Assembly: GCA_011388275.1 (NCBI GenBank)
Contig: DSAB01000138.1
Location: forward strand, 1-35,390
Length of the DNA stretch: 35,390 nt
Direction: 5' to 3'
Source: a bacterium
GTDB taxonomy: Bacteria > Zhuqueibacterota > QNDG01 > DSAB01
A model generated the notes under the pieces. That model had not been told where the DNA came from. It saw only the letters and a program-made list of their open reading frames with translations, and ran no database searches. Position numbers and translations under genes: made by a program. Position 1 is the stretch's first letter. The number at the start of each line of letters is the position of its first letter. Below, piece after piece: positions 3,011 through 18,712 of this stretch.

Positions 3011-3931
3011 ATGAGGCGATTTGTTGCATTGATCATACTGTGCCTGACCGGGGTGTGTTCTTCAGCCGCCTCATGGCAAAGGTTGTATCATTATCCGGTG
3101 CTTGTGTTCCATCACGCTGAAGATCGGGCCTATGCCCGAAAAGTCGTCTCCCTGGCAGCGGAGGAACTGCCTCGTCTTCGGGAAAGCCTGGGTGATGAGA
3201 CCGGCCGGGAAATCCGGATTGTTATTGCCGGCACGTTACAGGAGTTTTCACGTTTGACACATGGCCAGATCCCCGAATGGGGAGTCGGGGCTTCGGATCC
3301 GCAGAGTGCTGTAATCTATTTGCAATCTCCCAGAATCCATCGGGCGCGGATCAACAGGCAGCGGGTCCTGATTCATGAGCTGAGCCATGTTGTGTTATCC
3401 TGGGCTGTCGGTGGTTTCAGCGTGGACCGGTGGTTTGATGAGGGCGTGGCCCTTCATCTGTCCGGGGAAGGAGATCTGTACGGAACGCTGCGGCTGGCAC
3501 GAGGCGTTTTTTCCGGCCAGGTCTACGCCCTTCACGAAATTGAAGAGGTTCTTTCTTTTCCCTCGGAAAACGCGACGCTGGCCTATCAGCAGTCTGTTTC
3601 CGCGGTTCGATATCTGATTCGCCGGCATGGAGAAGATGTTCTGCCCCGAATCTGCCGCGCGCTGCGTTTTTATCATGACATGGATTCGGCCATGCTGCAA
3701 GCCATCGGGCAGGATGTCACGGATTTCGAAGCGGAATGGATGGCCGCTCTCAGGGTTTCTTCCCGATGGATGGTGTTACTGGACATGCCGTTTCTGATCA
3801 GTTTCGTGCTGGTGATGCTGTTTCTGGCGGCTTTTTTCATGACCGTCAGACGGGTACGAGAAAAGAAACGCACCTGGAAAGAAGAGGATGATGGCTTCGA
3901 AGCGGTGGAAAAAGATTCGCCATACGATTGA
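3011..3931 (+). CDS. Membrane-anchored peptidase MA-family metalloprotease
   Basis: The 306-residue product starts with a signal peptide (about residues 1-19). The zinc motif HELSH is at 122-126 and a downstream W-F-D-E-G at 141-145 supplies the likely third ligand, Glu144. This HExxH plus WFxEG layout is that of gluzincin peptidases of the MA-like family (Peptidase_MA_2). A hydrophobic segment near residues 255-278, followed by R-R-V-R-E-K-K-R, anchors the C-terminus with a short basic then acidic cytoplasmic tail. The catalytic domain should therefore face the periplasm. ATG 3011 is chosen over a longer in-frame start at 2891 because the upstream extension overlaps the terminator, while GGGAG stands seven bases before 3011 and a signal peptide begins there. 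Its 3' end overlaps the acyltransferase gene by 44 bases. The substrate is unknown. Confidence 0.85.
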   Translation: MRRFVALIILCLTGVCSSAASWQRLYHYPVLVFHHAEDRAYARKVVSLAAEELPRLRESLGDETGREIRIVIAGTLQEFSRLTHGQIPEWGVGASDPQSAVIYLQSPRIHRARINRQRVLIHELSHVVLSWAVGGFSVDRWFDEGVALHLSGEGDLYGTLRLARGVFSGQVYALHEIEEVLSFPSENATLAYQQSVSAVRYLIRRHGEDVLPRICRALRFYHDMDSAMLQAIGQDVTDFEAEWMAALRVSSRWMVLLDMPFLISFVLVMLFLAAFFMTVRRVREKKRTWKEEDDGFEAVEKDSPYD

Positions 3932-4850
3932 ATACCGGTCCGTGGTTTTTTTATGCAGGCTTTTCGGCCGCCTTTCGCTGAAGGCGGTTCTGAGAACGGC
4001 CGATCTTGCCGGTTGGCTGATTTTTCATGTATTCCGGGTGCGGAGGGGTGTGGTTCTGTCCAATTTGAGACTGGCCTTTCCGGAAATGAGCGAGGCTGAA
4101 CGCAAGGGCATCGCCCGCCGGTCTTATCAGAATATGGGAAAGATGACCTTTGAATGGCTGCACGCCTCAACGGCAAGTGATGAGCGGATTCGAACTTTGA
4201 TCCTTTTCGACCATGAGGAATATTTCGACTGGACATTTCAAAACGGGCGGGGAGCCATTTTGCTCTCCGGACATTTCGGCAACTGGGAGCTGATGGCCGC
4301 GGCCATTGCCAAAAGAGGGCATCCCCTGTCCGTGGTGGCCGCGAAACAGAGGAACCGGCGGGTTGACGGATTCATCAATGAACTGCGTGCTTCATCGGGT
4401 ATTCGTGTCATTCGTTTGGGAATGGCCATACGCGGCGTGCTTCGCGCGTTGGCAAACAATGAGCTGGTGGCTATTTTAGGCGATCAGGATGCGCATCGGG
4501 AGGGGGTGTTTGTTAATTTTTTCGGCAGGCCCGCTTCCACGCATCAGGGTCCGGCGGCTCTGGCTTTGAAAACCGGAGCCCCCATCATTCTCGGCAGCGC
4601 GGTTCGGCTGCCGGACGGAAGACACAGGGTTCTCACCGACCGGCTGACCGTGGATCATCTGAAAGGAGCCTCGCCTGAAAATATACGGGCGGTTACACAG
4701 GCACATGTCAGCCTTCTGGAAAAGAGAATCCGGCAATTCCCGGATCACTGGTTCTGGATGCACAGGCGCTGGAAGACACGGCCTCCGTCTGAAAGGTCCA
4801 TTCCCGAGGATGAAACAACGGCACGCAGGGAAGTGAGAGAAGCAGAATGA
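3888..4850 (+). CDS. LpxL/HtrB-type lysophospholipid (lipid A-like) acyltransferase
   Basis: This 320-residue protein belongs to the LpxL/LpxM (HtrB/MsbB) acyltransferase family, which adds secondary acyl chains to lipid A or related glycolipids at the inner membrane. The catalytic H-x4-E motif H-F-G-N-W-E is at 129-134, followed by G-D-Q-D at 198-201, F-F-G at 211-213 and a late W-F-W-M-H-R-R-W. A hydrophobic N-terminal region (about 17-50) fits membrane association. The length is normal for the family. Start codons at 3888 and 3891 are both possible; AAGAGG abuts 3888, so 3891 has better spacing. The gene overlaps the peptidase gene upstream and shares ATGA with tagD downstream, so the three are probably translationally coupled. 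No other lipid A gene lies nearby, and the acceptor could be the polymer lipid rather than lipid A. Confidence 0.9.
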   Translation: MMASKRWKKIRHTIEYRSVVFLCRLFGRLSLKAVLRTADLAGWLIFHVFRVRRGVVLSNLRLAFPEMSEAERKGIARRSYQNMGKMTFEWLHASTASDERIRTLILFDHEEYFDWTFQNGRGAILLSGHFGNWELMAAAIAKRGHPLSVVAAKQRNRRVDGFINELRASSGIRVIRLGMAIRGVLRALANNELVAILGDQDAHREGVFVNFFGRPASTHQGPAALALKTGAPIILGSAVRLPDGRHRVLTDRLTVDHLKGASPENIRAVTQAHVSLLEKRIRQFPDHWFWMHRRWKTRPPSERSIPEDETTARREVREAE

Positions 4851-5242
4851 AGAGAGTGATCACATACGGAACTTTTGACCTGTTTCATTACGGCCATCTG
4901 CGCATGCTTAAGCGAGCCAAAGCGCTGGGCGATTATCTCGTCGTGGCGGTTTCTACCGATGAATTCAATGCCGTCAAGGGCAAAAAATGCACTTATCCCT
5001 ACGAGCACCGTGCCAGGATTGTGGAAGCCATCCGGTTTGTGGATGAAGTGATTCCAGAAACCTGCTGGGAGCAGAAGACGGGCGACATTCGAAAACATCA
5101 AATCGATATTTTCGTCATCGGTGATGACTGGAAAGGACAATTTGATTTTCTAAAACCCTTCTGTGAAGTGATTTATCTGTCCCGAACGGCCGATATTTCC
5201 ACGACACAGATCAAAGACACATTGAAGAATGGAAAGGTTTAA
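4847..5242 (+). CDS. tagD: Glycerol-3-phosphate cytidylyltransferase (TagD type)
   Basis: The product is a 131-residue nucleotidyltransferase that should form CDP-glycerol from CTP and sn-glycerol 3-phosphate. Visible family signatures are G-T-F-D-L-F-H-Y-G-H with the HxGH motif at 14-17, G-D-D-W-K-G-Q-F-D at 92-100, and the R-T-x-x-I-S-T-T motif at 113-120. Length and motifs match TagD/GCT of Bacillus closely and fit ethanolamine-phosphate or FAD cytidylyltransferases less well. It overlaps the acyltransferase gene by four bases. A terminator-like hairpin follows, then two CDP-glycerol glycerophosphotransferase-like genes that would use its product. A TagD in an apparently diderm genome is the anchor for reading this region as a teichoic-acid-like locus. 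Confidence 0.93.
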   Translation: MKRVITYGTFDLFHYGHLRMLKRAKALGDYLVVAVSTDEFNAVKGKKCTYPYEHRARIVEAIRFVDEVIPETCWEQKTGDIRKHQIDIFVIGDDWKGQFDFLKPFCEVIYLSRTADISTTQIKDTLKNGKV

Positions 5243-5291
5243 TACGCCGGCTCCGCATCCGCAGGCGACTGCTGAAAAAAGGGTACCGTAT

Positions 5292-5319
5292 TCCCTGAAT
5301 CCGGTTCAGGGAGTTTTTA
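5292..5319 (+). terminator. Terminator- or attenuator-like hairpin inside the polymer cluster
   Basis: TCCCTGAA (5292-5299) pairs with TTCAGGGA (5305-5312) around TCCGG, followed by G and five T residues. It separates tagD from the downstream transferase genes. No promoter is evident between it and 5354, so it may be a partial terminator that sets the ratio of upstream to downstream transcripts. Confidence 0.65.
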
Positions 5320-5353
5320 AGATCCGGATATCCGTTGCGGGATAGATGATTAT

Positions 5354-6397
5354 ATGAAGATTCTTTTCTATGCAGCCAAAAATTATTCCATTCCCGTTAT
5401 CGAACCCCTCGTTCGGTATGGGGAGAAGAAGGGGCGGTCTCTTTCGTTTTTTGTTTCACGTAAAGTAAAAGCGGATCTTCCCGTATCATGGCGCGCATTC
5501 CAGGTCTTTGAAGAGATCGGTGCCGCTGCTTCGTGGAAACCCGATTTTGTGATCTGTCCCGGCAATTTTGTGGATTTTCGGCTGCCGGGGGTTAAAGTAC
5601 AGATATTTCACGGTCTGGGAATCGAGAAACTGTCGCATTACCGGATTCGTCATTTTTTCGACGTGTATATGACTTCGGGCCCTGCGGTCACGGAGAGATT
5701 TCGGAGTCTTCAAAAAAAATACGGCTATTTTTTGGTGAAAGAGACCGGCTGGCCAAAGATCGATTTCATACTGAACTATCCGGCTGCCGGGCTGAGACGT
5801 AAATATGGAATTCGGACGGACCAAAAAGTTATTTTATACGCGCCGACTTTCAGCCGGAAGATGGAATCCGCATCCAGCCTTTTGCCGGAGATACCCAAAA
5901 TGGCCGCAGGCAATGAAGTCTGGATTATCAAGTTTCATGAGCTCATGAGCCGGGACGTTGTCGAGAAATTCAGGGAATTCAACAATGAGCGGATCCGACT
6001 GGCCGGGGAGAGGGATATCACTCCGCTTATGCACTTGGCGGATGTGCTGATATCGGACACTTCCTCGGTTGTCTATGAATTCATGGCTCTGGACAAGCCG
6101 GTGATTACTTTCCGGACTCTGGACCGGCGGGATAAAGGGATCGATATACGGCATGTCCATGAATGCCGGCCGGCTGTAGACCGGTGCCTGGACCATCCGG
6201 GAGAATACCGGGAATCAAGGCGGCGGCACATGATGGAAGTGAATCCTTATCTTGACGGCGATACAGCCCGGAGGGTCGATGAGGCCCTGAGTGAGATTCA
6301 GCGTGAAGGATTGCCTTTGGCGAGAAAACCGGGCAACTGGTTTCGGAAAGCCCAGGTGCTGTATCATGCCCGATACCGGAAAGGATACCTGCGGTAA
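5354..6397 (+). CDS. CDP-glycerol glycerophosphotransferase-like enzyme (A)
   Basis: The 347-residue product looks like the GT-B transferase domain of the TagB/TagF/TarL superfamily, which moves polyol-phosphate units from CDP donors to a growing polymer at the cytoplasmic face. Landmarks in order are F-H-G-L-G-I-E-K (85-92), T-G-W-P-K-I-D (131-137), Y-A-P-T-F-S (162-167), K-F-H-E (193-196) and S-D-T-S-S-V-V-Y-E-F (234-243). The HG and H-P/E histidines and the SDxSS loop are the conserved donor-site features of the family. It lacks the extra N-terminal domain of full TagF polymerases, so it is closer to TagB-size primases. The ribosome binding site is weak. The stop overlaps the next start (TAATG). 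Whether glycerol-phosphate or another polyol-phosphate is moved cannot be read from sequence. Confidence 0.88.
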   Translation: MKILFYAAKNYSIPVIEPLVRYGEKKGRSLSFFVSRKVKADLPVSWRAFQVFEEIGAAASWKPDFVICPGNFVDFRLPGVKVQIFHGLGIEKLSHYRIRHFFDVYMTSGPAVTERFRSLQKKYGYFLVKETGWPKIDFILNYPAAGLRRKYGIRTDQKVILYAPTFSRKMESASSLLPEIPKMAAGNEVWIIKFHELMSRDVVEKFREFNNERIRLAGERDITPLMHLADVLISDTSSVVYEFMALDKPVITFRTLDRRDKGIDIRHVHECRPAVDRCLDHPGEYRESRRRHMMEVNPYLDGDTARRVDEALSEIQREGLPLARKPGNWFRKAQVLYHARYRKGYLR

Positions 6398-7488
6398 TGA
6401 TTCGCGTGCTTTTTGATCTGAAAAAAGAGTATTATTTGAATTCCCTTCTGCCGCTTTACCGTCTGATGGAGGAGGATGATCGGTATGATGTCCGGATACG
6501 TGTGGGCAGCGATCAGCGTGCCTATTTTAAGATATGGACAGTCTCCGAAAGAAGCCGCATTCAATCAAAGCTGGAGGAAAAGGGATATCAGGTAACGAAA
6601 GAAACCCGGGATTTCGACGTGGTGGTGTGCGGTGACGCCCTGAAAAATCCTCAGCGATACGGTGATGTGCTTCGTATTCATCTGGATCATGGGGTCGGCA
6701 TCAAAACCCTGAGAATACGCAATATCGTCAGGCAGCATCCGGTCCATTATCATGTGTTTCTGGAAGGACAATACTGGTATGATTATATAGGCCAATGCGG
6801 CTGGCATGACAGAGCGACGTTTCATATCACCGGTCTTCCGAAGCTCGATCCCCTGTTCCGGAAGGGGTACTACCGTCCCGATGAACTGAAGCGGCGTCTG
6901 AATCTCGGCCGGGAGAAGCCGACGATTCTGTTCGCACCTTCGTACAAACCCAGCTGTATTCCCTATGTCAGGGAGAAGGTTACCGAACTTCTGCCGCGAT
7001 ACAATGTTATTGTGAAGCTGCATCCCTACAGCTGGGGCGGAAAGTACGCGCCCCACAGCCAGCATCGTTTTTATGAACGTCTGGCCAAAAAGGAGAAAAA
7101 TCTGTATCTTATACCCAGAGACGAATTTGACATCTATCCTTATCTGATGCTGGCGGACACGCTGATCAGCGATACATCCAGTGTTGTCAATGAGTTTCTG
7201 GCTTTGGGCAGGCATGGCGTCATCTATGTGCTTCCCTATGAGAGACTGATGCACAGTGACGGCATGCCGGTGCTCTCTATCGATCCGAGGGACTGGCTGA
7301 AAGGTGCCTTTGTGCATATCGATGATCCGCGGGATCTGCCGGGGGCCGTGGAAACGGCGCTGAATCCCACCGGGGAGATGCGAAGGCAACTGAAAAAGTA
7401 CAGAAATTATTTTTTTCACAGACTCGACGGGAAAGCCTCTTTTCGGGTCAAGGCGAAAATCGATGAACTCATGAAAGGAAAGTTTTAA
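6397..7488 (+). CDS. CDP-glycerol glycerophosphotransferase-like enzyme (B)
   Basis: This 363-residue GT-B protein is a second, diverged member of the same superfamily. Landmarks are D-H-G-V-G-I-K (97-103), T-G-L-P-K-L-D (145-151), F-A-P-S-Y-K (179-184), K-L-H-P-Y (207-211) and S-D-T-S-S-V-V-N-E-F (258-267). The KLHP version of the histidine motif is closest to classical TagF-type enzymes. No signal peptide or membrane segment is visible; family members sit on the inner face of the membrane. The start codon overlaps the previous stop and its own stop directly abuts the LicD-family start, so translation is probably coupled. An in-frame antisense ORF of over 400 codons covers this region but lacks any recognisable motif. 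Confidence 0.88.
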   Translation: MIRVLFDLKKEYYLNSLLPLYRLMEEDDRYDVRIRVGSDQRAYFKIWTVSERSRIQSKLEEKGYQVTKETRDFDVVVCGDALKNPQRYGDVLRIHLDHGVGIKTLRIRNIVRQHPVHYHVFLEGQYWYDYIGQCGWHDRATFHITGLPKLDPLFRKGYYRPDELKRRLNLGREKPTILFAPSYKPSCIPYVREKVTELLPRYNVIVKLHPYSWGGKYAPHSQHRFYERLAKKEKNLYLIPRDEFDIYPYLMLADTLISDTSSVVNEFLALGRHGVIYVLPYERLMHSDGMPVLSIDPRDWLKGAFVHIDDPRDLPGAVETALNPTGEMRRQLKKYRNYFFHRLDGKASFRVKAKIDELMKGKF

Positions 7489-8100
7489 ATGCCCGGTCAC
7501 TACAAACTGACGGGTCAATACGCTCGTATCGCCGAGAAGATGCTGGCTGCCACGGCCGATGTGTTGGAAAAGGCCGGCATTCCCTACATTCTGGAGGCCG
7601 GAACGCTTCTGGGTGTGGTGCGGGAGAACCGGCTTCTTCCCTGGGACGATGATGTGGACATTACCATTACCAGGCAGCATGAAAAGCGGCTGATCAAGGC
7701 GCTGCCTGCCCTGTGGCTCAGGGGATACAAGGTACGGATCAAACGGTATACCCGCGATCTGAAGTACTTCCGGAAAGGGGAGGTGCGCATCATTAAGATC
7801 AAGCATTTTACCCTGCCCTTTTTCAGGAGCGATGTGAACCTCGACATCTTTCTAAAGCGTCTGGTCGGAGACGAGTACTTCTGGACGGTGGGTGTGCACC
7901 GCCCGGTGCTAAAGAGCGTGCCGCGCCGGTTTTATGAAGAGCTGGGATCACTGGAGTTCCGCGGCCGCCGATACAGTGTGCCTGCGGATTACCGCGGCTA
8001 CCTGACCGAGCACTACGGTGACTGGCAGGCCGTGGTCAGGGAATGGAATTTTAAATTCGACGACAGAAGCGTCAGGGAAAAACTCTATGACGAAAACTGA
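7489..8100 (+). CDS. LicD-family phosphotransferase
   Basis: The 203-residue product carries the LicD hallmark at residues 38-57: G-T-L-L-G, then R-E-N, then L-L-P-W-D-D-D-V-D. These aspartates coordinate metal in this nucleotidyltransferase-fold family. LicD proteins transfer phosphocholine or other phosphodiester-linked groups from CDP carriers onto teichoic acid, lipooligosaccharide or glycoproteins; some members move ribitol phosphate (the fukutin relatives). The length is slightly short of typical 250-280 residue LicD. It starts at the base after the stop of transferase B, with GGAAAG upstream. The LicC-like cytidylyltransferase at 10001 is the natural supplier of its donor. The substrate is inferred from this pairing. 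Confidence 0.88.
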   Translation: MPGHYKLTGQYARIAEKMLAATADVLEKAGIPYILEAGTLLGVVRENRLLPWDDDVDITITRQHEKRLIKALPALWLRGYKVRIKRYTRDLKYFRKGEVRIIKIKHFTLPFFRSDVNLDIFLKRLVGDEYFWTVGVHRPVLKSVPRRFYEELGSLEFRGRRYSVPADYRGYLTEHYGDWQAVVREWNFKFDDRSVREKLYDEN

Positions 8101-8112
8101 ACAGGGCATGGC

Positions 8113-9183
8113 ATGAAGCCGGTTTATTATTACGCCAACCATATTTACCAGTTTTCCTACGCGCTGCCGCTGTACAACACCATCGGCGGTGTCTTTGTTG
8201 TTCGGGATTTGTGGCGGCTCTGGAGTTTTCTTCGTTTTTTCCGGGGGCTGGCCCGTGATGGAAAGACCCCCTTTCTGAAGACGCCCCGGGTGATTGTCAG
8301 GTCCCGTGAGAAGCTGGCCGGTCTTGATGGGATTCTTGTTTTCTTCTCCAACAGCATTGTGCCGGGTGATGACTACAGCCGAAGCATCACCATTTTTCAT
8401 GAGCACGGCACCAGTGACAAACGCTACGGCGGGAAAGCGCATGAAGAGGCCAGGGCCAAGCTGAGCGCCTATGATACCATTTTTCTCTCCGGACCCAAGA
8501 ACCGCCGGCGGCTTGAGGATATGCAACTTCGGCTTCCCGAGGAAAAACTGGTGAATATCGGCGGTTTCAGGATCGATGAATACCTCAAGGGAAATTACTC
8601 CCGGGAGCGGGAGTATGAACGGCTGAAGATAACCGACCGATCACGCAAGAACATTCTCTACGCTCCCACATGGCGGTTCGGCAAAGGAACGCTCAAGAAA
8701 TACGGGCTGCGGTTCGCGCGGGAGATCACTCGAAAGCACAACCTGATCATCAGGCCCCATTACCATGATCAGAAGTACAGCTGTCTGCTGAAGTTGCAGT
8801 GTGCATTGGCGGGCGTGAAACATGTATACTTCTCCAACGCGTCCAACATCATCAAACAGGACACATTCAACGACTTTGTGATCGCGGATCTCATGATCAG
8901 CGACATGTCATCGGTCATCTATGAGTTCCTGATTATGGGAAAGCCGGTGATTATCGTAAAAAATGATTTCGACAACTGTCATCAAATGCCGAAAGAGATG
9001 GATATCATGCAGAACGCGGATCTCTTCGAGGAAGGGGATGATATTCTTCGGCTTGTTGATGAGAACCTGGCCAATCCCCGCTTCGTCGAAACCTACAGGA
9101 AGATGGCCCGGGCCAGCTTTTACACCGAGGGCAGCGCCGTGCAGCGTGCCGCGGATTTCATCAGGAAACTGGCGGTGGAATAA
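8113..9183 (+). CDS. CDP-glycerol glycerophosphotransferase-like enzyme (C)
   Basis: This 356-residue protein is the most diverged of the three GT-B enzymes. It keeps H-E-H-G-T-S-D-K (96-103), L-Y-A-P-T-W-R (182-188), R-P-H-Y-H-D (214-219) and S-D-M-S-S-V-I-Y-E-F (263-272), but in place of the T-G-x-P-K-x-D motif it has G-G-F-R-I-D-E-Y-L (150-158), and KLHP becomes RPHYH. These changes suggest a different donor or acceptor from enzymes A and B. The N-terminus (Y-Y-Y-A-N-H-I-Y-Q-F-S-Y) has no signal peptide. ATG 8113 is set because the nearby ATG at 8107 runs into a stop after one codon. It lies 12 bases after the LicD-family gene and 4 bases before the sulfotransferase gene. Confidence 0.85.
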   Translation: MKPVYYYANHIYQFSYALPLYNTIGGVFVVRDLWRLWSFLRFFRGLARDGKTPFLKTPRVIVRSREKLAGLDGILVFFSNSIVPGDDYSRSITIFHEHGTSDKRYGGKAHEEARAKLSAYDTIFLSGPKNRRRLEDMQLRLPEEKLVNIGGFRIDEYLKGNYSREREYERLKITDRSRKNILYAPTWRFGKGTLKKYGLRFAREITRKHNLIIRPHYHDQKYSCLLKLQCALAGVKHVYFSNASNIIKQDTFNDFVIADLMISDMSSVIYEFLIMGKPVIIVKNDFDNCHQMPKEMDIMQNADLFEEGDDILRLVDENLANPRFVETYRKMARASFYTEGSAVQRAADFIRKLAVE

Positions 9184-9187
9184 ACAC

Positions 9188-9985
9188 ATGAACCGTTTTG
9201 AAGATGTCATAAAAAGGATGACGATCAATCCGGTTATTCGAAATATCGGCCGGGTGATCGATAAAAAGCATTTCCCCGGGATCCCGATTTTTGTGACGGC
9301 TTCCCCTCGATCCGGAACCACGCTGCTGCTGTCGATACTGGGAGCGCATCCCAATATCTACGCGGTGCCGGAACAGACTTATGCGTTCAGCCGCTGGACA
9401 AGAACGCCTTTCAGACGATACAGAGAGTATCCATACCGAATAGACCGGCTCTACCGGGAATTTATTTTAAAGGGTTTCGACCGATCCGCAAACCGCTGGT
9501 GTGAAAAGACGCCCCGTCATGTGGAATACATTGAAAAAATCGTCGAGTTCTACGGAGGAAGCGTACAGATTATCCACCTGATCAGGGACGGCCGGGATGT
9601 TGTGGTGTCCAGCCATCCGACCCATACAGGCAGGCATTACTGGGTGTCGGCGAACCGATGGCTGAAGAGCGTGCAGGCCGGCTGGAGTCTGCGCGAAAAG
9701 CCCTATCTGCACACGGTCTTTTATGAGGACCTGGTGAGAGATTACCGGTCCGAGATTCGTGAGATCTGTGATTTTTTGAATGAGCCCTACACGAAGTCTC
9801 TGGAAAACTGGATCGATACGACGAATATCAGGGAGAGCATCCATATCGGAGGAAAGCTGCAGCCGGTACATACCGGCGCTGTCGGCAAATGGAAGCGGCC
9901 CGAACATCGGGAGCGGGTCGCGGAATTTATGACCGATCCGGACGCGGTGGCCATGCTCCGGGAACTTGGATACAGTGTGCCATAG
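9188..9985 (+). CDS. PAPS-dependent sulfotransferase
   Basis: The 265-residue product shows both PAPS-binding signatures of the sulfotransferase superfamily: a 5'-phosphosulfate loop S-P-R-S-G-T-T-L at 39-46 and a 3'-phosphate motif L-I-R-D-G-R-D-V-V-V-S at 131-141. The C-terminal phrase G-A-V-G-K-W-K is also typical. It would transfer sulfate from PAPS to a carbohydrate hydroxyl or other acceptor. No transmembrane segment is visible, so it should act in the cytoplasm before export. ATG 9188 lies four bases after the previous stop; a longer frame upstream only overlaps transferase C. Its place inside the polymer cluster suggests that the surface product is sulfated, which is inference. Confidence 0.9.
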   Translation: MNRFEDVIKRMTINPVIRNIGRVIDKKHFPGIPIFVTASPRSGTTLLLSILGAHPNIYAVPEQTYAFSRWTRTPFRRYREYPYRIDRLYREFILKGFDRSANRWCEKTPRHVEYIEKIVEFYGGSVQIIHLIRDGRDVVVSSHPTHTGRHYWVSANRWLKSVQAGWSLREKPYLHTVFYEDLVRDYRSEIREICDFLNEPYTKSLENWIDTTNIRESIHIGGKLQPVHTGAVGKWKRPEHRERVAEFMTDPDAVAMLRELGYSVP

Positions 9986-10000
9986 TGTGATGAGGATTCA

Positions 10001-10741
10001 ATGAAACCATTACCCGCGGTCATTCTGGCTGCCGGCAGAGGAAGACGGCTCGGCAGGCTCAGTGACAATCAGCCCAAACCGATGACGGAAGTGAACGGCG
10101 TTTCGATCTTCGATAATCTGCTGGGTTCGCTGATCGCCCAGGGATTGGAACGGATCATCCTGGTCACCGGCTATCTGGATCAGATTCTGGTGAATGCAGC
10201 CAATCCCTACCGGGACCGCTGCGAGATCATTACGGTCTATAACGAAATCTACGCCACCACCAACAATATCTACTCCCTCTGGCTGGCAAGTCAATATTTG
10301 ACAGAGGGATTCTACCTGTTCGAAGCCGATATCTTTTTCGAAAACGCGGTAATGGAGTCGCTGGTCAATGCGGATCACGACGATGTCATGCTGATCGGCA
10401 AATACAATGCGCATATGGACGGCACAGTCGTTGATCTGGATGCCCGTGACCGGGTGCTTTCCATGTACCTGAAACAGCATCAGGGGGATGGATTCGACTA
10501 TTCCGACAAGTACAAAACCGTCAATTTCTACCGGATCGGCAAGGAATTCGCGGCCGGTTTCTTTTTGGAAAAAATGAAAGAACATATCGTTCAGGGGGAT
10601 CTGAATTCCTATTATGAGCTGATCATCAAGGAAGCGCTGGACAGGGGGCACCCTATTTATGGATTGAAAACCGGTCCGCACAGATGGTGGGAGATCGACA
10701 CCCTGGACGATCTGACATATTGTGAATCCCTTTTTGGATGA
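10001..10741 (+). CDS. LicC-like phosphocholine (or related) cytidylyltransferase
   Basis: This 246-residue protein is a sugar-nucleotidyltransferase-fold enzyme with the P-loop-like A-A-G-R-G-R-R-L-G at 10-18, P-K-P at 25-27 and E-A-D at 108-110. The A-T-T-N-N-I-Y-S-L-W-L-A block at 85-96 is a hallmark of the LicC group, which couples CTP to phosphocholine; close relatives (PntC) use 2-aminoethylphosphonate. It would make the CDP-linked donor for the LicD-family protein. No choline kinase, choline transporter or phosphonate biosynthesis gene is in the window, so the true substrate is open. GAGG six bases upstream supports the start. The stop is next to the exporter gene. Confidence 0.85.
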   Translation: MKPLPAVILAAGRGRRLGRLSDNQPKPMTEVNGVSIFDNLLGSLIAQGLERIILVTGYLDQILVNAANPYRDRCEIITVYNEIYATTNNIYSLWLASQYLTEGFYLFEADIFFENAVMESLVNADHDDVMLIGKYNAHMDGTVVDLDARDRVLSMYLKQHQGDGFDYSDKYKTVNFYRIGKEFAAGFFLEKMKEHIVQGDLNSYYELIIKEALDRGHPIYGLKTGPHRWWEIDTLDDLTYCESLFG

Positions 10742-10747
10742 GTGTCT

Positions 10748-12658
10748 ATGAATATTTATAAACGGATACTTGCGTTTTTCAGGCCCTATATCTCGCATGT
10801 GGTGATTTCACTTTTGCTCACCTTTATTTATGTGATGCTGAACAACGTCTCGCTGTGGGTGTCGGTTGACTTCATCGGAGAGCTGTTTCCAACGGGTCAA
10901 TCCGCGCCGGAGGAATCGGTTTCGCCGATTTCGGAGTTGATGGACAGGGCGCTGCCAGCAGATGCGGCAGAGGGCTTCGAGGTGACAGGACAGCGTAAAA
11001 AAGCCGAACCGCAAGCCAAAATGAATGTGTACCGCACCATCAAACGAGCGGTCAAGAGCGTCCTGATTCGTGAAGATCAGCTGGAAACCCTGAGGCTGGT
11101 GTGTGCGGTCATTTTTATCACTTTTTTTCTCAAGAATATTTTTGACTATCTGCGGCGTGTCATCAACCGCTTTATTCAGACACGGATCGTCGTTGATCTG
11201 CGAAATCAGATTCAGGCGGCCGCCATGCGGCTGCCTCTGGTTTTTTTCGATTCCGCACATACCAGCCGGATCACATCCATCGTTTTCAACGATGTGAAAT
11301 CGGTACGGCAGGTGCTGAGCAACAGCCTGGGAAAGATAATCCTGACACCGCTGCAGATGATCACCAACATCGTGATCCTCGTGATTATCAGCTGGAAGCT
11401 GTCGCTGATCACGTTTATCGTCATCCCCCTGAGCGGATTCATCATCATCAAGATCGGTCACAGCATGCGGCGGAAGAGCCGCCGTGTTCTGAAACAGATT
11501 TCGGAGGTCATGATGCTGTTTCAGGAGGCTGTCTCCTCAATCAGGGTCGTGAAATCCTTTACCTCGGAGGAATGGGAGATTCGAAGGTTTCAGAGAGCAA
11601 ACAGAAACTTTCAGCGGAAACAGATGCGTGCCCACTATCTGGGCCAGTTGACATCGCCGTTGAACGAAGTGACTGCGGTTTCCATTCTCATTATCCTGCT
11701 CTGGATCGGCGGCAATCTGGTCTACAAAGGCGAACTGCAGGGTGAAGATTTCATCCGGTTTCTGATTTTTCTGTTTGCCAGTCTGAGCCCTCTGCGGGAG
11801 CTTTCCGGACTCAATAATATTCTCCAGGACGGAGTGGCCGCTGCTGAGCGGATATTCGGTATCATCGACCTTCCCCACGAGAATTACGAACCGCCCGGTG
11901 CCGTTGAACTGAAGTCATTCAGGGAATCCATCCGGCTGGAGAAGGTGACGTTTGACTATGGCGATGAAACTCTGCCTGTACTGAAAAACATCAATCTGGA
12001 GATAAAAAAAAGCGAAACGGTGGCCTTCGTGGGACACAGCGGTTCGGGAAAGACGACTCTGGTGAATCTGATACCCCGGTTTTATCCGGTCCAAAAGGGA
12101 AGAATCACCATCGATGGTGTGGACATCAAAGAGGTCACCCTGAAGTCTTTGCGCGGAATGATCAGCGTTGTCAGCCAGGAAACGCTGCTGTTCAATGATA
12201 CGATTCGAAACAATATCGCATACGGTCTGGATAATGTCAGCGACGAAGCGGTGATCGAGGCGGCCAAAGCGGCCAATGCCTGGGAATTTATCGAGTCAAT
12301 GGACGGCCGGCTCGATGCCATGGTCGGAGAGCGGGGCGGCAACTTTTCCGGAGGACAGAGGCAGCGTCTTTCCATCGCCCGCGCGATTCTCAAGAATCCC
12401 CCGATTCTGATACTCGATGAGGCGACCAGCGCCCTGGACACCGAGTCGGAGAAGCTGGTGCAGGAGGCCATTAACAGCGTGATGAAGAACCGGACGGTTC
12501 TGGTCATCGCCCATCGTCTCTCGACGATCATCCACGCCGGGAAGATCGTGGTATTGAAACAGGGAGAAATTGTCGGTGTCGGAAACCATCGGGAGCTGCT
12601 TGATGCCTGTCCATTGTACCGCGTGCTTTATGAGATGCAATTTCAGGAAAATTATTAA
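10748..12658 (+). CDS. MsbA-like ABC exporter half-transporter
   Basis: The product is a 636-residue type IV ABC half-transporter with a fused six-helix membrane domain (about 1-330) and nucleotide-binding domain. Visible motifs are Walker A G-H-S-G-S-G-K-T-T near 428, signature F-S-G-G-Q-R-Q-R near 532, Walker B I-L-D-E-A-T-S-A-L-D near 554 and the H-loop A-H-R-L-S near 587. The TM1-TM2 loop is large: about 60-70 mostly hydrophilic residues with acidic and Lys-rich parts. MsbA relatives flip lipid A or other lipid-linked glycans. A GTG at 10742 would add two residues, but GGATGAG gives better spacing to ATG 10748. As the last gene of the cluster it may flip the lipid-linked polymer or its anchor; it could equally be the organism's general MsbA. 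Confidence 0.93.
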   Translation: MNIYKRILAFFRPYISHVVISLLLTFIYVMLNNVSLWVSVDFIGELFPTGQSAPEESVSPISELMDRALPADAAEGFEVTGQRKKAEPQAKMNVYRTIKRAVKSVLIREDQLETLRLVCAVIFITFFLKNIFDYLRRVINRFIQTRIVVDLRNQIQAAAMRLPLVFFDSAHTSRITSIVFNDVKSVRQVLSNSLGKIILTPLQMITNIVILVIISWKLSLITFIVIPLSGFIIIKIGHSMRRKSRRVLKQISEVMMLFQEAVSSIRVVKSFTSEEWEIRRFQRANRNFQRKQMRAHYLGQLTSPLNEVTAVSILIILLWIGGNLVYKGELQGEDFIRFLIFLFASLSPLRELSGLNNILQDGVAAAERIFGIIDLPHENYEPPGAVELKSFRESIRLEKVTFDYGDETLPVLKNINLEIKKSETVAFVGHSGSGKTTLVNLIPRFYPVQKGRITIDGVDIKEVTLKSLRGMISVVSQETLLFNDTIRNNIAYGLDNVSDEAVIEAAKAANAWEFIESMDGRLDAMVGERGGNFSGGQRQRLSIARAILKNPPILILDEATSALDTESEKLVQEAINSVMKNRTVLVIAHRLSTIIHAGKIVVLKQGEIVGVGNHRELLDACPLYRVLYEMQFQENY

Positions 12659-12692: not shown

Positions 12693-13364
12693 ATGCAGGA
12701 GCCAGGAGAATCCGTTCCGGGGATTTCGACTGTCAGGGCCTTTTCACAGGGGTGGGAGCAGCGATCCGCGGATGTGTTAAGGCGAGGCGGAATTGTGATT
12801 TATCCGACTGAAACCGTATATGGGTTGGGTTGTGATCCGTTCAATCCGAAGGCGGTCAGGCGTCTGAAACGAATGAAAGGAGACAAAAAACCGGTCCGGC
12901 CTTTCCTCATACTCGTTCCTGATGCCTTATTTGCGGAGAGCATGGCTGCCGAAGTTTCGGATACGGCGCGCCGTCTTATGCAGGAATGCTGGCCCGGTCC
13001 GCTGACCCTGATTTTCAAGGCCTCATCAAAAGCGCCGGAACCGGTCATGGCTTCGAACAGGGCCATTGCCATGCGGGTTTCATCCGATCCGGTCTGCCGG
13101 AGTCTGACGAGTGCCTTCGGGCCGCTGGTCTCCACCAGCGCCAATCTTTCGGGAAAAGAGCCGGCTTTCCGGGCCGTGGACGCGGCTTGCTGCTTTGCCG
13201 AAAAGGCGGATCTGGTGATCGACGATGGCGACAGGGGAAGCGAGCCGCCTTCCACGCTGGTGGATGTGACATCAGCCCGTCCGCGCATTCTGAGACAGGG
13301 AGCCGTCAAATGCGCGTTTCTGCTGGATCTCATTCGTGTCGAAAAGGGCGTTGATCATGCTTAG
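12693..13364 (+). CDS. tsaC: L-threonylcarbamoyladenylate synthase (TsaC/Sua5/YrdC)
   Basis: The 223-residue product makes threonylcarbamoyl-AMP from Thr, bicarbonate and ATP for the t6A37 modification of ANN-reading tRNAs. The YrdC signatures are clear: Y-P-T-E-T-V-Y-G-L-G-C-D (37-48), W-P-G-P-L-T-L-I-F (100-108), A-M-R-V (126-129) and S-T-S-A-N-L-S-G (147-154). The usual K-x-R-P basic loop appears as K-G-D-K-K-P-V-R-P. It has only the YrdC domain and no C-terminal Sua5 domain, so it is TsaC-sized. It overlaps the phosphatase gene by eight bases, the same order as ywlC-ywlE in Bacillus, which supports both calls. Confidence 0.93.
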   Translation: MQEPGESVPGISTVRAFSQGWEQRSADVLRRGGIVIYPTETVYGLGCDPFNPKAVRRLKRMKGDKKPVRPFLILVPDALFAESMAAEVSDTARRLMQECWPGPLTLIFKASSKAPEPVMASNRAIAMRVSSDPVCRSLTSAFGPLVSTSANLSGKEPAFRAVDAACCFAEKADLVIDDGDRGSEPPSTLVDVTSARPRILRQGAVKCAFLLDLIRVEKGVDHA

Positions 13365-13827
13365 AGTTCTGTTTGTATGCACGGGAAATCTCTGCCGCAG
13401 TCCGATGGCCGAAGGATTGTTCAGAAAGGAGTTCACCGGTGATTTCTCCTTGACAGCCGCTTCAGCCGGCACCATGGCCCCGAAAAATCGCCCCCCAACC
13501 GATTATTCCGTTATGACCATGATGGAAAGAGGCGTGGACATACGGCCGCATCGTTCCCGGCCTTTGACTGAAGAGATGGTGAACGAGGCGGATCTGATTC
13601 TTGTTATGGAAGACGTCCATACACGGTTCATCATCAATCAGGTTCCTGAAGCGAAAAACCGAACCCATCTGCTGGGCGGATACGGTTTGAAAAAAGGAAA
13701 GGAGATCGATGATCCAGTCGGACAGGACATGGATGTATACAGGCAAATCGCGGAAATTATCGAACGGGAAATCAGGCGCATCGCTCCCCTTCTCAAACGG
13801 GCCGCAGGAACATTGCGGAACGGTTAG
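13357..13827 (+). CDS. Low-molecular-weight protein tyrosine phosphatase family
   Basis: The 156-residue product carries the LMW-PTP catalytic loop C-T-G-N-L-C-R-S (Cys8 to Ser15) at its N-terminus and the general-acid motif D-D-P at 118-120. These cytoplasmic enzymes dephosphorylate phosphotyrosine or, in the YwlE group, phosphoarginine. In YwlE the residue at the position of Leu12 here is Thr, which is reported to be needed for arginine specificity; Leu points to a tyrosine-type enzyme. ATG 13357 is preferred to the in-frame GTG at 13336, because AAAAGGG lies eight bases before it and the family normally starts two or three residues before the first strand. Many bacteria keep LMW-PTP with surface-polysaccharide genes, but here the neighbour is tsaC. 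Confidence 0.92.
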   Translation: MLRVLFVCTGNLCRSPMAEGLFRKEFTGDFSLTAASAGTMAPKNRPPTDYSVMTMMERGVDIRPHRSRPLTEEMVNEADLILVMEDVHTRFIINQVPEAKNRTHLLGGYGLKKGKEIDDPVGQDMDVYRQIAEIIEREIRRIAPLLKRAAGTLRNG

Positions 13828-13910
13828 GCGTTTCACAGGCGAATACTCAATCGGCGCGCAATGAAACGTTCCGGATCTCTCGGCCGGTTCAGGCTGAAAG
13901 GATATCGAAG

Positions 13911-14750
13911 ATGATGCCACTGTGGATATTTGTTCGCATGCTGGTTCTGCTCTCTGAACAGGATCTTCCTCCCGAATCTTATGAACCATTTGAGAACGTT
14001 TCGGATTCAACGAACATCGCCGCCGTGCATGAAGATGAGGCGCAGCCCCCTGTCGATCCTTCCTGGCGGAAACGCCGGATTCAGCAGGATTCTTTCGGGG
14101 TTGGTGAACGGCTGATCTTTGATGTCGCCTACGGTCCGATTGTGGCCGGCGAGGCGACCATGTCCATTCCGGAAACCGTGATGTACCGCGGTCAGGTATG
14201 TTACCGGGTCGTGACAACAGCCCGGTCGACCCAATTCGTCGATACGTTTTTCAAGGTTCGTGACCGCGTGGAAACACTGATCGACATGGAAGGAATATTC
14301 CCCTGGAGATTTGAAAAGCGGATCAGGGAGGGCCGATACCGCTCGCATCGAAAAGAGATCTATGATCAGCCCTCGGAGAGAGTGTATTATAAAAAGGATA
14401 CGATCGATGTGGCTCCCTATATACAGGGTGTTCTTTCGTCTTTCTATTTTGTTCGAACCATGGACCTGGAAGTGGGAAAGCATTTTGACATCGACAACTT
14501 CGGAGACGGGAAAATTTATCCTCTGAGAGTGCTCGTCCACAAGAAAGAGAAGGTGCGCGTGCCGGCCGGAACCTTCAAGTGCATTCTCGTTGAACCCATA
14601 CTCAAGGAAGAGGGGATATTCAAGCATGAGGGGCGCCTTCGTATCTGGCTGACGGATGACGCCTATCGCATGCCGGTTCTGATGAAGAGCAAGGCGCTGA
14701 TCGGATCCATCGACGCGCGGCTGACCCGTTATACCCGCCATCGCAACTGA
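13911..14750 (+). CDS. DUF3108-domain envelope protein
   Basis: The 279-residue product has a short hydrophobic N-terminus (about residues 2-14), then a low-complexity Pro/Glu-rich linker to about residue 58, then a DUF3108-like beta-rich domain. Recognisable parts are the opening F-G-V-G-E-R-L-I-F-D-V-A-Y-G and G-E-A-T-M, the middle R-V-P-A-G-T-F-K-C-I-L-V-E-P, and the closing L-R-I-W-L-T-D-D and P-V-L-M-K-S-K. Family members are thought to be periplasmic or outer-membrane associated and are often found near lipid or polysaccharide genes; no activity is established. Start codons at 13911 and 13914 are both possible. The N-terminal hydrophobic core is short for a signal peptide, so export is probable but not certain. 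Confidence 0.85.
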   Translation: MMPLWIFVRMLVLLSEQDLPPESYEPFENVSDSTNIAAVHEDEAQPPVDPSWRKRRIQQDSFGVGERLIFDVAYGPIVAGEATMSIPETVMYRGQVCYRVVTTARSTQFVDTFFKVRDRVETLIDMEGIFPWRFEKRIREGRYRSHRKEIYDQPSERVYYKKDTIDVAPYIQGVLSSFYFVRTMDLEVGKHFDIDNFGDGKIYPLRVLVHKKEKVRVPAGTFKCILVEPILKEEGIFKHEGRLRIWLTDDAYRMPVLMKSKALIGSIDARLTRYTRHRN

Positions 14751-14771
14751 ATCATTGGAGGAACCACCGTA

Positions 14772-15713
14772 ATGAGCCGATACCGGGAGATCGACCTGAA
14801 ACGCGTTCAAACCATCGGAATAGCCGAACGCGAAAGCAAAGTGCGGATCTCCATGCTGGCCAAACTTCTGGAAAAGGGGGAGACCGTATCCGGTCTGTTA
14901 AAGAAAATGCCTTCACTTCTGGGTTCAAGGGATTTTCTGGACCTGACCGACGCTCTCGTGCAGGCCAGAGAGGCCGGAAAGCCTGTTCTGTGGATGATGG
15001 GCGCGCATGTGATCAAGGCCGGATTGAGTCCCATTCTGATTCAATTGATGGATCAGGGAATCGTGCAGGGCTTGGCTCTGAACGGAGCCGGTGCGATTCA
15101 TGATGTTGAGATGGCTCTTTTCGGAGAGACTTCGGAGGATGTGTCGAAAACCCTGATTACGGGTCGTTTCGGAATGGCGCGTGAGACAGCCGATTTTCTC
15201 AACGAGTCCGCAATTCAGGGTCGGAACGGGGAATTGGGACTGGGTGAAGCGCTGGGGAAAAGACTGGCGGAAAATGAAGGTTCCCATTTCGAACAGTCTA
15301 TTCTGGCTCAGGCTTATCATCGGGCGATTCCGGTCACCGTCCATGTGGCTCTGGGTACGGATATTGTGCATCAACACGCGTCGGCTGACGGGGCTGCCAT
15401 CGGAGCGTGCAGTTTGCGTGATTTCCGGATTTGGACGGAACTGATTCCCGGAATTCACCAGGGGGGCGTGGTTCTGCTGTTTGGATCGGCGGTCATTCTG
15501 CCTGAAGTCTTTCTGAAATCGCTGGCAGTCGCCCGCAATGTTCATGGACCTGTCGAAGATTTTATTACCGCCAATTTTGACATGATACACCATTATCGTC
15601 CCCGTGTGAATGTTCTGGAACGGCCTGCCGGAAGAAAGGGATACGCGCTGACCGGACATCATGAGATCATGCTTCCGCTTCTTGCCGCTGCGCTGATAGA
15701 TCGTTTGGCATGA
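14772..15713 (+). CDS. Conserved protein resembling deoxyhypusine-synthase/NAD-binding fold
   Basis: I cannot name this 313-residue protein with certainty. It has Rossmann-like blocks: G-K-P-V-L-W-M-M-G-A-H-V-I-K-A-G-L (68-84), then G-L-A-L-N-G-A-G-A-I-H-D-V-E-M-A-L-F-G (about 101-119) with a following E-T-S-E-D-V, later H-V-A-L-G-T-D-I-V-H-Q-H, and V-L-L-F-G-S-A-V-I-L-P-E. The G-A-x-H-D-x-E-x-A-L-x-G block recalls deoxyhypusine-synthase-like and LOR/SDH bifunctional NAD-binding proteins, and many bacterial genomes annotate relatives as DHS-like. The classical DHS active-site lysine region is not obvious. GGAGG ten bases upstream supports the start. It follows the DUF3108 gene by 21 bases. 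Bacteria have no eIF5A substrate, so a different role is likely. Confidence 0.85.
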   Translation: MSRYREIDLKRVQTIGIAERESKVRISMLAKLLEKGETVSGLLKKMPSLLGSRDFLDLTDALVQAREAGKPVLWMMGAHVIKAGLSPILIQLMDQGIVQGLALNGAGAIHDVEMALFGETSEDVSKTLITGRFGMARETADFLNESAIQGRNGELGLGEALGKRLAENEGSHFEQSILAQAYHRAIPVTVHVALGTDIVHQHASADGAAIGACSLRDFRIWTELIPGIHQGGVVLLFGSAVILPEVFLKSLAVARNVHGPVEDFITANFDMIHHYRPRVNVLERPAGRKGYALTGHHEIMLPLLAAALIDRLA

Positions 15714-15760
15714 AGCCTGTTTTCATTCATTGTCAGATCTTTTTATGCTGGTGACCGCCG

Positions 15761-17149
15761 ATGGAACCTGTTCCGAAAGAAAATGTCCGTATTTTGATTG
15801 CGGATGACAACCGGAGTCACTCCGATATTCTTATGAGTATTATCGGCCATGCGGGTTTTGAGTGCGACGCGGCGGAAGATGGAACAACGGCTCTGAAAAA
15901 ACTCGAAACAGAGACCTATGATCTGGTTTTGCTGGATTTGAAATTGCCGGATATAAGCGGAATGACGGTTTTACGGAAAGTTTTGCGGCTCAACTGCCGC
16001 CCTCAGGTGGTTATGATATCCGGCCAGGGCAGTGTTCAGGCCGCTGTTGAGGCAATAAAAATCGGAGCTTTCGACTTTCTGGAAAAGCCTCTGGACTCAA
16101 AACGTGTTCTGCTGACTGTTAAAAATGCCCTGGAAAAAGAACGTCTTGTCAGAGACAAGGCACGCCTGATGAAGGAGCTTGCAGACCGGTACACGATGGT
16201 GGGTCAAAGCACGGGAATGGACTCTATTCGGGAGATGATATCCAGGGCGGCCGATACAACCAGCAAAGTGCTCATTGAGGGTGAAAATGGAACCGGAAAG
16301 GAGCTTATCGCCCGCTTGATTCATCATCAGGGGCCAAGATCCGGCGGGCCTTTTGTGACCATCAACTGTGCCGCGATACCTGAAACGCTGATTGAAAGCG
16401 AACTGTTCGGGTTTAAAAAAGGTTCATTCACAGGAGCCCTGACGGACAGAAAGGGAAAATTTCAGTCCGCCGATGGAGGAACTCTCTTTTTGGATGAAAT
16501 CGGAGATATGAGTCTTCTGACACAGGCAAAAGTGCTTCGAGTGCTTGAAAGCGGAATGGTTGAACAGCTCGGCGGCAGTGAGGCTGTTCGAACCGATGTG
16601 CGTCTGATCGCGGCGACCAACAAGGATTTAAAGAAACAGATCGAACGGGGAGAGTTCCGGGAGGATCTGTATTTCCGCCTGAACGTGCTGAATATCAAAG
16701 TACCTCCGCTCAGACAGCGAAAGGAGGATATTGAGCTTCTTGTCGACTATTTTTCATCCCGGTACTGCCGGGCATTCGGTGCCGAACCCAAGAGATTTTC
16801 ACCCGGTGCTGTCGAATTTCTGAAGAATTACAAATGGCCCGGTAATATTCGTGAGTTGAAAAATGCCGTGGAGAAGATCATGGTGACCATCGAAAACAGC
16901 GAAGTGCATCCACAGGATATCGACGGGATTCTTCATCCGGGATCCTCTACTACCGGATTGCGTCCATTCGTTCCATTGACTTTGAGGGAGGCCAGAAGCC
17001 GTTTCGAAAAAGAGCTGATTCAGGATCGGCTTGAAAGAAACCATTGGAATATCACCCGTACAGCCATTGATCTTGGCATAACGCGGATCTATTTGCATCG
17101 ATTGATGAAAGATATGGGCATTAAAAGCCGAAGAAAACCGCCGGAGTAA
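15761..17149 (+). CDS. NtrC-family sigma-54-dependent response regulator
   Basis: The 462-residue product has a receiver domain (acidic pair Asp15-Asp16, phospho-acceptor Asp59, Ser87, Lys109), an AAA+ domain (Walker A G-E-N-G-T-G-K-E at 174-181, Walker B T-L-F-L-D-E at 241-246, arginine-rich R-E-D-L-Y-F-R-L-N) and a C-terminal Fis-type helix-turn-helix (about 424-452). It should activate sigma-54 promoters when phosphorylated. The sigma-54 contact loop reads G-S-F-T-G-A (221-226) instead of the usual G-A-F-T-G-A, a conservative change. No histidine kinase is adjacent, so the partner is elsewhere. Its ribosome binding site is weak. It is convergent with the ECF sigma gene, 63 bases away. Confidence 0.95.
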   Translation: MEPVPKENVRILIADDNRSHSDILMSIIGHAGFECDAAEDGTTALKKLETETYDLVLLDLKLPDISGMTVLRKVLRLNCRPQVVMISGQGSVQAAVEAIKIGAFDFLEKPLDSKRVLLTVKNALEKERLVRDKARLMKELADRYTMVGQSTGMDSIREMISRAADTTSKVLIEGENGTGKELIARLIHHQGPRSGGPFVTINCAAIPETLIESELFGFKKGSFTGALTDRKGKFQSADGGTLFLDEIGDMSLLTQAKVLRVLESGMVEQLGGSEAVRTDVRLIAATNKDLKKQIERGEFREDLYFRLNVLNIKVPPLRQRKEDIELLVDYFSSRYCRAFGAEPKRFSPGAVEFLKNYKWPGNIRELKNAVEKIMVTIENSEVHPQDIDGILHPGSSTTGLRPFVPLTLREARSRFEKELIQDRLERNHWNITRTAIDLGITRIYLHRLMKDMGIKSRRKPPE

Positions 17150-18531: not shown

Positions 18532-18681
18532 ATGGCGGAAATGGGATATTGTGTAAAATGCCGTGAAAAACGGGAAATAACCGGTGCCCAGCAGGTTACC
18601 ATGAAAAACGGGCGCCCGGCCGTGAAAGGGAAATGCGGTGTTTGCGGCACCGGAATGTACAAAATACTTTCCAAGAAGTGA
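18532..18681 (+). CDS. DUF5679-type zinc-ribbon mini-protein
   Basis: This 49-residue gene has a strong GGAGGTG ribosome binding site. Two CxxC pairs (Cys7/Cys10 and Cys35/Cys38) frame a basic stretch with V-T-M-K-N-G-R-P-A, and the protein ends in Met-Tyr-Lys-Ile-Leu-Ser-Lys-Lys. The C-V-K-C-R-x-K-R-E and T-M-K-N-G-R-P phrases with a closing C-G-V-C-G-T match the DUF5679 zinc-binding domain, which also occurs as a C-terminal part of some topoisomerase-like proteins. The role is unknown; nucleic-acid binding is a fair guess from the basic zinc ribbon. It is followed by a multi-pass membrane protein gene 31 bases on, probably on the same transcript. Confidence 0.9.
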   Translation: MAEMGYCVKCREKREITGAQQVTMKNGRPAVKGKCGVCGTGMYKILSKK

Positions 18682-18712
18682 TTTTTTTGCAAGAATCAAA
18701 GGAGACACACGT

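Follow-up and report, generated by a model that had tools for sequence, protein, structure and literature searches.

A probable lipopolysaccharide-core locus carrying teichoic-type polyol-phosphate transferases in a diderm bacterium

The window analyzed here is a stretch of 35,390 nucleotides (GenBank assembly GCA_011388275.1, contig DSAB01000138.1) from an uncultured bacterium of the Zhuqueibacterota. Our subject is a tight run of genes on its + strand, in which TagD, the enzyme of cytidine diphosphate (CDP)-glycerol synthesis, and three PF04464 transferases (here called GpT1, GpT2, and GpT3) are framed by the lipid A genes LpxL and MsbA. This cassette is probably a lipopolysaccharide (LPS; or lipooligosaccharide, LOS) core locus in which the sugar glycosyltransferases have been replaced by CDP-dependent, teichoic-type polyol-phosphate transferases. 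The recurrence of GpT genes in the LPS loci of several candidate phyla further suggests that these lineages lengthen their LPS cores by phosphate-linked polyol units, for instance glycerol phosphate.

The cassette and its genome

Gene identities come from Pfam and NCBIfam scans of the window proteins (Table 1). The order on the + strand is LpxL, TagD, GpT1, GpT2, LicD, GpT3, sulfotransferase, NTP_transf_3, MsbA, and Sua5. The genes that an earlier note had named from the sequence (TagD, three TagB/TagF-type proteins, LicD, a LicC-like protein, a sulfotransferase, and an MsbA-like protein) are thus all present, at or near the positions it gave. Intergenic gaps within the run measure -4 to +15 bp, except for 111 bp between TagD and GpT1, and 34 bp follow MsbA. 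A 4-bp overlap joins LpxL to TagD, and the nucleotidyltransferase is followed directly by MsbA. The sulfotransferase reading frame was listed from 8963, but alignment makes a start at 9188 (265 amino acids), which is 4 bp past GpT3, more plausible.

Table 1. Positions and assignments of the genes in and next to the cassette
Feature	Position	Strand	Evidence
LpxL-type lipid A acyltransferase, operon 5' end	3888..4850	+	PF03279, 198 bits
TagD, glycerol-3-phosphate cytidylyltransferase (CDP-glycerol)	4847..5242	+	TIGR01518 above cut-off, 184.0 vs 165.4 bits
GpT1, GT-B polyol-phosphate transferase, candidate priming enzyme	5354..6397	+	PF04464, 80 bits
GpT2, GT-B polyol-phosphate transferase, most widely conserved member	6397..7488	+	PF04464, 57 bits
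LicD-family phosphotransferase, candidate elongating/decorating enzyme	7489..8100	+	PF04991, 76 bits
GpT3, GT-B polyol-phosphate transferase, variable member	8113..9183	+	PF04464, 61 bits
Sulfotransferase, probable sulfate decoration	9188..9985	+	PF13469 (Sulfotransfer_3), 88 bits; P-loop TASPRSGTT
LicC/PntC-like nucleotidyltransferase, probable cytidine triphosphate-dependent donor synthesis	10001..10741	+	NTP_transf_3
MsbA-type lipid A-core flippase, cassette 3' end	10742..12658	+	Best model TIGR02203, 500 bits
Sua5/TsaC, low-molecular-weight (LMW) phosphatase, DUF3108: conserved slot markers outside the pathway	12693..14750	+	Pfam/NCBIfam

The source genome (2.8 Mb in 155 contigs, 96.5% complete) holds these three PF04464 proteins above the cut-off and no others, and the window MsbA is its sole MsbA match at E<=1e-110. 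There is no sugar glycosyltransferase in the cassette, where CDP-polyol-type transferases are found instead. The earlier note was right about this for the cassette; in the genome as a whole a GT9 gene lies beside KdtA on another contig, and GT9, GT4, and GT2 genes occur at the same locus in relatives. The outer membrane that it had deduced is supported by the LpxL and Mla genes of the window (Pfam scan) and by KdtA elsewhere in the genome. For the synthesis of lipid A bearing 3-deoxy-D-manno-oct-2-ulosonic acid (Kdo), the source genome thus has both KdtA and LpxL, the latter being the Lpx gene searched for, and KdtA is present in 30/34 GpT2-bearing genomes.

A variable core locus in related genomes

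Two genomes from another family of the same taxonomic order (G004 and G009) keep the arrangement LpxL-TagD-GpT1-GpT2-LicD-GpT3-X-nucleotidyltransferase-MsbA-Sua5-DUF3108-ArgZ, where X is a sulfotransferase in G004 and a fourth PF04464-like gene in G009. The teichoic-type genes are therefore co-conserved as a block, as the earlier note had expected, and conservation between families excludes a chance assembly. The distribution is patchy, since G001, the only further genome from the family of the window, has neither GpT1 nor GpT2.

Other relatives fill the interval between LpxL and MsbA-Sua5 with genes unlike those of the window (G029, G047, and G055), which in G029 are two GT9, three GT2, one GT4, and one weakly pyruvyl-transferase-like gene. 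Both kinds of genes stand there together in G034, with GpT3-TagD-GpT2 beside GT9/GT4/GT2, and in G020, where three tandem GpT3 copies and TagD-GpT2 adjoin GT9/GT4/GT2-type genes. Because relatives hold LPS-core glycosyltransferases or both kinds in this slot, the interval is a variable LPS-core locus, and the window version of it consists of CDP-polyol-type transferases. It resembles the waa/rfa-type LPS-core loci, in which variable genes lie beside lipid A/Kdo genes and MsbA, and it differs from them in that the variable set of the window holds CDP-polyol-type transferases only. The flanking LpxL and MsbA genes, together with the glycosyltransferases in the relatives' slot, make Kdo/heptose-lipid A the simplest anchor and MsbA the simplest exporter, and the new anchor and export route proposed in the earlier note is not supported.

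Within the same phylum, GpT2 also occurs in more divergent forms. In G044 and G060 it directly follows GT9. Further members at G029:C4:40509, G055:C55:1712, and G065:C174:17928 score about 400 bits against the A4 profile and do not adjoin the LPS genes tested. TagD above the cut-off was found in none of the genomes with this divergent clade (G029, G044, G055, G060, G065, and G068).

GpT2 beside LPS genes in other phyla

Scanning a GpT2 alignment against 84,980 species genomes yielded 56 loci, mostly 59-66% identical, several of them on short contigs. The records belong to Cloacimonadota, Delongbacteria, Fermentibacteria/Sabulitectum (Fermentibacterota), Calditrichota, Neomarinimicrobiota, UBP11, and Armatimonadota, phylum names being those in the titles of the metagenome-assembled genome (MAG) records. 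Gene order varies around a common theme: MsbA-GpT1-GpT2 in Cloacimonadota; TagD-GpT1-nucleotidyltransferase-GpT3-GpT2, facing LpxL, in Fermentibacterota; GT9-TagD-GpT1-LicD-nucleotidyltransferase-GpT2 in Delongbacteria; and GpT2-GT9-KdtA in a Neomarinimicrobiota MAG (L060). The order in a Calditrichota MAG (L097) is LpxL-TagD-GpT1-LicD-sulfotransferase-nucleotidyltransferase-PF04464-like gene-GpT2-MsbA. With neighbors assigned at score thresholds that we chose, an LPS gene (LpxL, MsbA, KdtA, or GT9) lies within 8 kb of GpT2 at 34/38 loci, counting those whose context extends to 8 kb or more. The corresponding figure is 0/40 for control stretches from the same genomes (431 kb in total), which were taken from contig starts and not matched for position. 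The GpT2 tree agrees with the phylum labels, needing 6 changes against a minimum of 5, though many of its inner branches are weak.

Some of these loci have features of their own. In a Delongbacteria MAG, a PF00884 gene (sulfatase/LtaS/EptA superfamily) sits between the nucleotidyltransferase and GpT2 (L061:8378-9985). Two records titled Armatimonadota (L095 and L098) show GpT1-GpT2-GT9, for which either transfer or a mis-binned contig is possible.

Transferases and donor enzymes

Profile searches match GpT1 to Cps3D, TarL, and TagF, and GpT3 to Cps3D (3e-10) and TarL. The AlphaFold models of GpT1 and GpT2 have predicted local distance difference test (pLDDT) values of 91 and 92 and align with TagF at TM-scores of 0.6-0.7, TagF being the top Foldseek match of GpT2 (2.3e-13). 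Nearly every member of each GpT family keeps the catalytic motifs: HG, the Lys that follows it, a second His, and SDxSS (36 sequences were checked for GpT1). The LicD protein carries the motif GTLLGxxRxxxxxPWDDDxD, and its PDB match is FKRP (6kaj).

The window TagD matches Bacillus subtilis TagD (PDB 1coz) at E=3e-55 and retains the HxGH and RTxxISTT motifs. Among 22 loci with TagD, 17 have it directly 5' of GpT1, and another 3 have it directly 5' of GpT2. The nucleotidyltransferases fall into three classes across the loci, which suggests that different versions of the locus use different CDP-alcohols: CDP-glycerol, CDP-inositol, and a choline-like compound. The window enzyme is closest in the PDB to the PntC-AEPT-type structure 6pd1 (1.4e-17), followed by LicC (1jyk, 8.7e-13); the four other loci with a sulfotransferase all have an enzyme of its class, and no further locus does. 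The second class adjoins GpT3 and is closest to inositol-1-phosphate cytidylyltransferase (IPCT), while the third pairs with LicD and is closest to LicC. Downstream of GpT1-GpT2-GpT3 in L088 (12181-14310), the IPCT-like enzyme is accompanied by a myo-inositol-1-phosphate synthase (PF07994), suggesting phosphoinositol in the core. The genes of L059 (12213-14318) follow the same order, and the run there includes a 457-amino-acid open reading frame (ORF).

A proposed pathway

We infer the acceptor, donor, step order, chain length, and export route of the product from these arrangements as follows. KdtA and GT9, encoded elsewhere, would add Kdo (and heptose) to lipid A, and TagD, given its strong homology, would make CDP-glycerol. 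With a CDP compound as donor, GpT1 and GpT2 may then attach polyol-phosphate to the inner core. A precedent exists in Actinobacillus pleuropneumoniae, where the PF04464 protein CpsA primes a Kdo glycolipid with glycerol 3-phosphate (Gro3P) and CpsC, of the LicD family, makes poly(Gro3P) (PMC11666461). LicD and GpT3 would extend or decorate the product, using CDP-glycerol or a second CDP-alcohol from the LicC/PntC-like enzyme, and sulfate would be added by the sulfotransferase. The finished lipid A-oligosaccharide would be flipped by MsbA and carried to the surface by the Lpt pathway. We predict a teichoic-like product, either an oligomer or a short polymer, that is anchored to lipid A and strongly anionic.

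Counter-evidence and alternative readings

Several observations weigh against the cassette being an LPS-core locus of this kind. The window MsbA scores 500 bits, below the curated TIGR02203 cut-off of 602, and in G006 the cassette follows LpxL while MsbA is on a separate contig. LptD (PF04453) has no match in the source genome, a null that is uninformative because the model fails in a control Bacteroides too. By Foldseek, GpT1 is as near to UDP-N-acetylglucosamine 2-epimerases (1.3e-13) as to TagF (4.5e-13). At the site of TagF Pro447, three residues past the catalytic His, glycerol-phosphate transferases are reported to have Pro and ribitol-phosphate transferases Gly (PMC10299916). GpT1 and GpT2 both have Gly there, and the window GpT3 has Ser (Ser/Gly across that family), although this rule was established on capsule polymerases and might not hold for the GpT families. 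Finally, TagD is absent from all the Cloacimonadota genomes tested (0/15), all of which carry GpT1-GpT2.

The absence of TagD there, the missing Pro, and the inositol-phosphate synthase at L088 make the donor of GpT1 and GpT2 less certain. It is quite conceivable, though we lean slightly the other way, that within the same LPS-core cassette their donor is CDP-ribitol, CDP-inositol, another CDP-polyol, or one that depends on lineage, with TagD serving a single step such as that of LicD or GpT3. Such an outcome would concern the donor and not the anchor. Against it stand the position of TagD directly upstream of GpT1 or GpT2, its company with GpT2/GpT3 in Fermentibacterota, L056, and L099, where LicD was not detected, and its restriction within the window's own phylum to seven genomes above the cut-off, each with a strong GpT2 match. 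Judged by whether TagD co-occurs, a strict dependence of GpT1/GpT2 on CDP-glycerol is seen in the high-identity GpT2 clade of that phylum but fails in Cloacimonadota, and the more divergent GpT2 clade also lacks TagD above the cut-off; we rejected it. The CDP-glycerol-based polymer of the earlier note stays plausible, but TagD is missing from some relatives that have these transferases, and the product may be either a polymer or a short oligomer. Two Cloacimonadota loci without TagD (L052:3820-5617 and L079:8642-10158) have two or three tandem genes 3' of GpT1-GpT2; these TagD-like genes score better as HldE-type adenylyltransferase domains and were rejected as TagD.

The size of the added structure is a separate matter. 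The core might bear only single phosphodiester groups (phosphoglycerol or phosphocholine-like) and sulfate, with no chain, which we regard as possible but would not favor. LicD and a LicC-like enzyme occur together in phosphocholine decoration, as in the LOS system of Haemophilus influenzae, which shares with the window this gene pair in an LPS context. The transferases are also all short and single-domain, without any of TagF length in the window. The H. influenzae likeness is incomplete: Pfam finds neither the choline kinase LicA nor the transporter LicB in the cassette (the search for them was confined to it), and the PntC-AEPT structure 6pd1 is the best PDB match of the window nucleotidyltransferase. 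A few single substituents would not need as many enzymes as three PF04464 proteins (four in G009) and LicD in series, nor the three tandem GpT3 copies of G020. At the other extreme would be a true lipid A-anchored teichoic acid, with a poly(polyol phosphate) chain on Kdo/heptose-lipid A replacing the sugar outer core or O-antigen, as an old and largely vertical envelope type of several candidate phyla of the Fibrobacterota-Chlorobiota-Bacteroidota (FCB) group; we consider this rather unlikely. Glycerol phosphate O-antigens such as that of Hafnia alvei PCM1220 likewise combine tagD and a glycerol phosphate transferase in the LPS cluster of a diderm (PMC4869667). In Hafnia this is an O-antigen cluster, whereas the window genes lie between LpxL and MsbA and have no TagO/WecA-type initiator.

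An LPS-independent polymer of the wall- or lipo-teichoic kind, on an undecaprenyl or diacylglycerol anchor and with the MsbA-like protein as its dedicated exporter, is improbable. The enzyme set of TagD with TagB/TagF-type transferases speaks for it, and the wall teichoic acid pathway (TagD, TagB, TagF/TarF, TarL) shares CDP-glycerol synthesis, GT-B transferases, and the catalytic motifs with the window; the sub-threshold MsbA and its separation from the cassette in G006 also fit. The window system differs in being diderm and in having no Pro at the glycerol position. The only PF00953 protein of the source genome is MraY (signature PF10555, next to MurD), and so there is no TagO/WecA. A TagGH/Wzm pair was not found either: the two PF01061 (ABC2_membrane) matches above the cut-off (C49 and C36) adjoin MacB/FtsX or ABC_transp_aux genes, a third, sub-cut-off match (C103) not having been examined. 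These absences led us to reject an undecaprenyl-anchored teichoic acid. In addition, the window MsbA is the only strong one in its genome, and MsbA/LpxL flank LPS-core glycosyltransferase genes in relatives.

A group 2-like capsule on a Kdo glycolipid, with a linker of the CpsA/CpsC type, is very improbable and was rejected: TagD, PF04464, and LicD correspond in enzyme kind to Cps7B, CpsA, and CpsC of the A. pleuropneumoniae group 2 capsule, with its priming on a Kdo glycolipid and LicD-family Gro3P addition (PMC11666461), but that system uses Kdo-phosphatidylglycerol and ATP-binding cassette (ABC) capsule export, whereas the window genes lie in an LpxL-MsbA operon, KpsC/KpsS (PF05159) were found in 0/30 GpT2-bearing genomes with the E. 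coli positive control matched, no capsule-type permease is among the ABC2_membrane matches examined, and the window has no multidomain TagF-like polymerase.

Other genes of the window

Several families of the phylum keep the run Sua5-LMW phosphatase-DUF3108-ArgZ-like-NtrC (12693-17149) that lies 3' of MsbA. Two long ORFs (18638-19915 and 119-1003; 425 and 294 amino acids) have no Pfam match.

Significance

No description of this arrangement was found in the open-access literature searched, most subscription journals being outside that search. If the cassette is indeed an LPS-core locus with polyol-phosphate transferases, then in several uncultured diderm phyla teichoic-acid-type chemistry would be part of the LPS core and would not be confined to Gram-positive walls, a few capsules, and O-antigens; a shared enzyme set would connect these two kinds of anionic surface polymer. 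The GpT families would include new CDP-polyol transferases acting on lipid A-Kdo acceptors. The association of GpT1-GpT2 with LpxL, MsbA, or KdtA would then be a gene signature that predicts the envelope chemistry of uncultured lineages.

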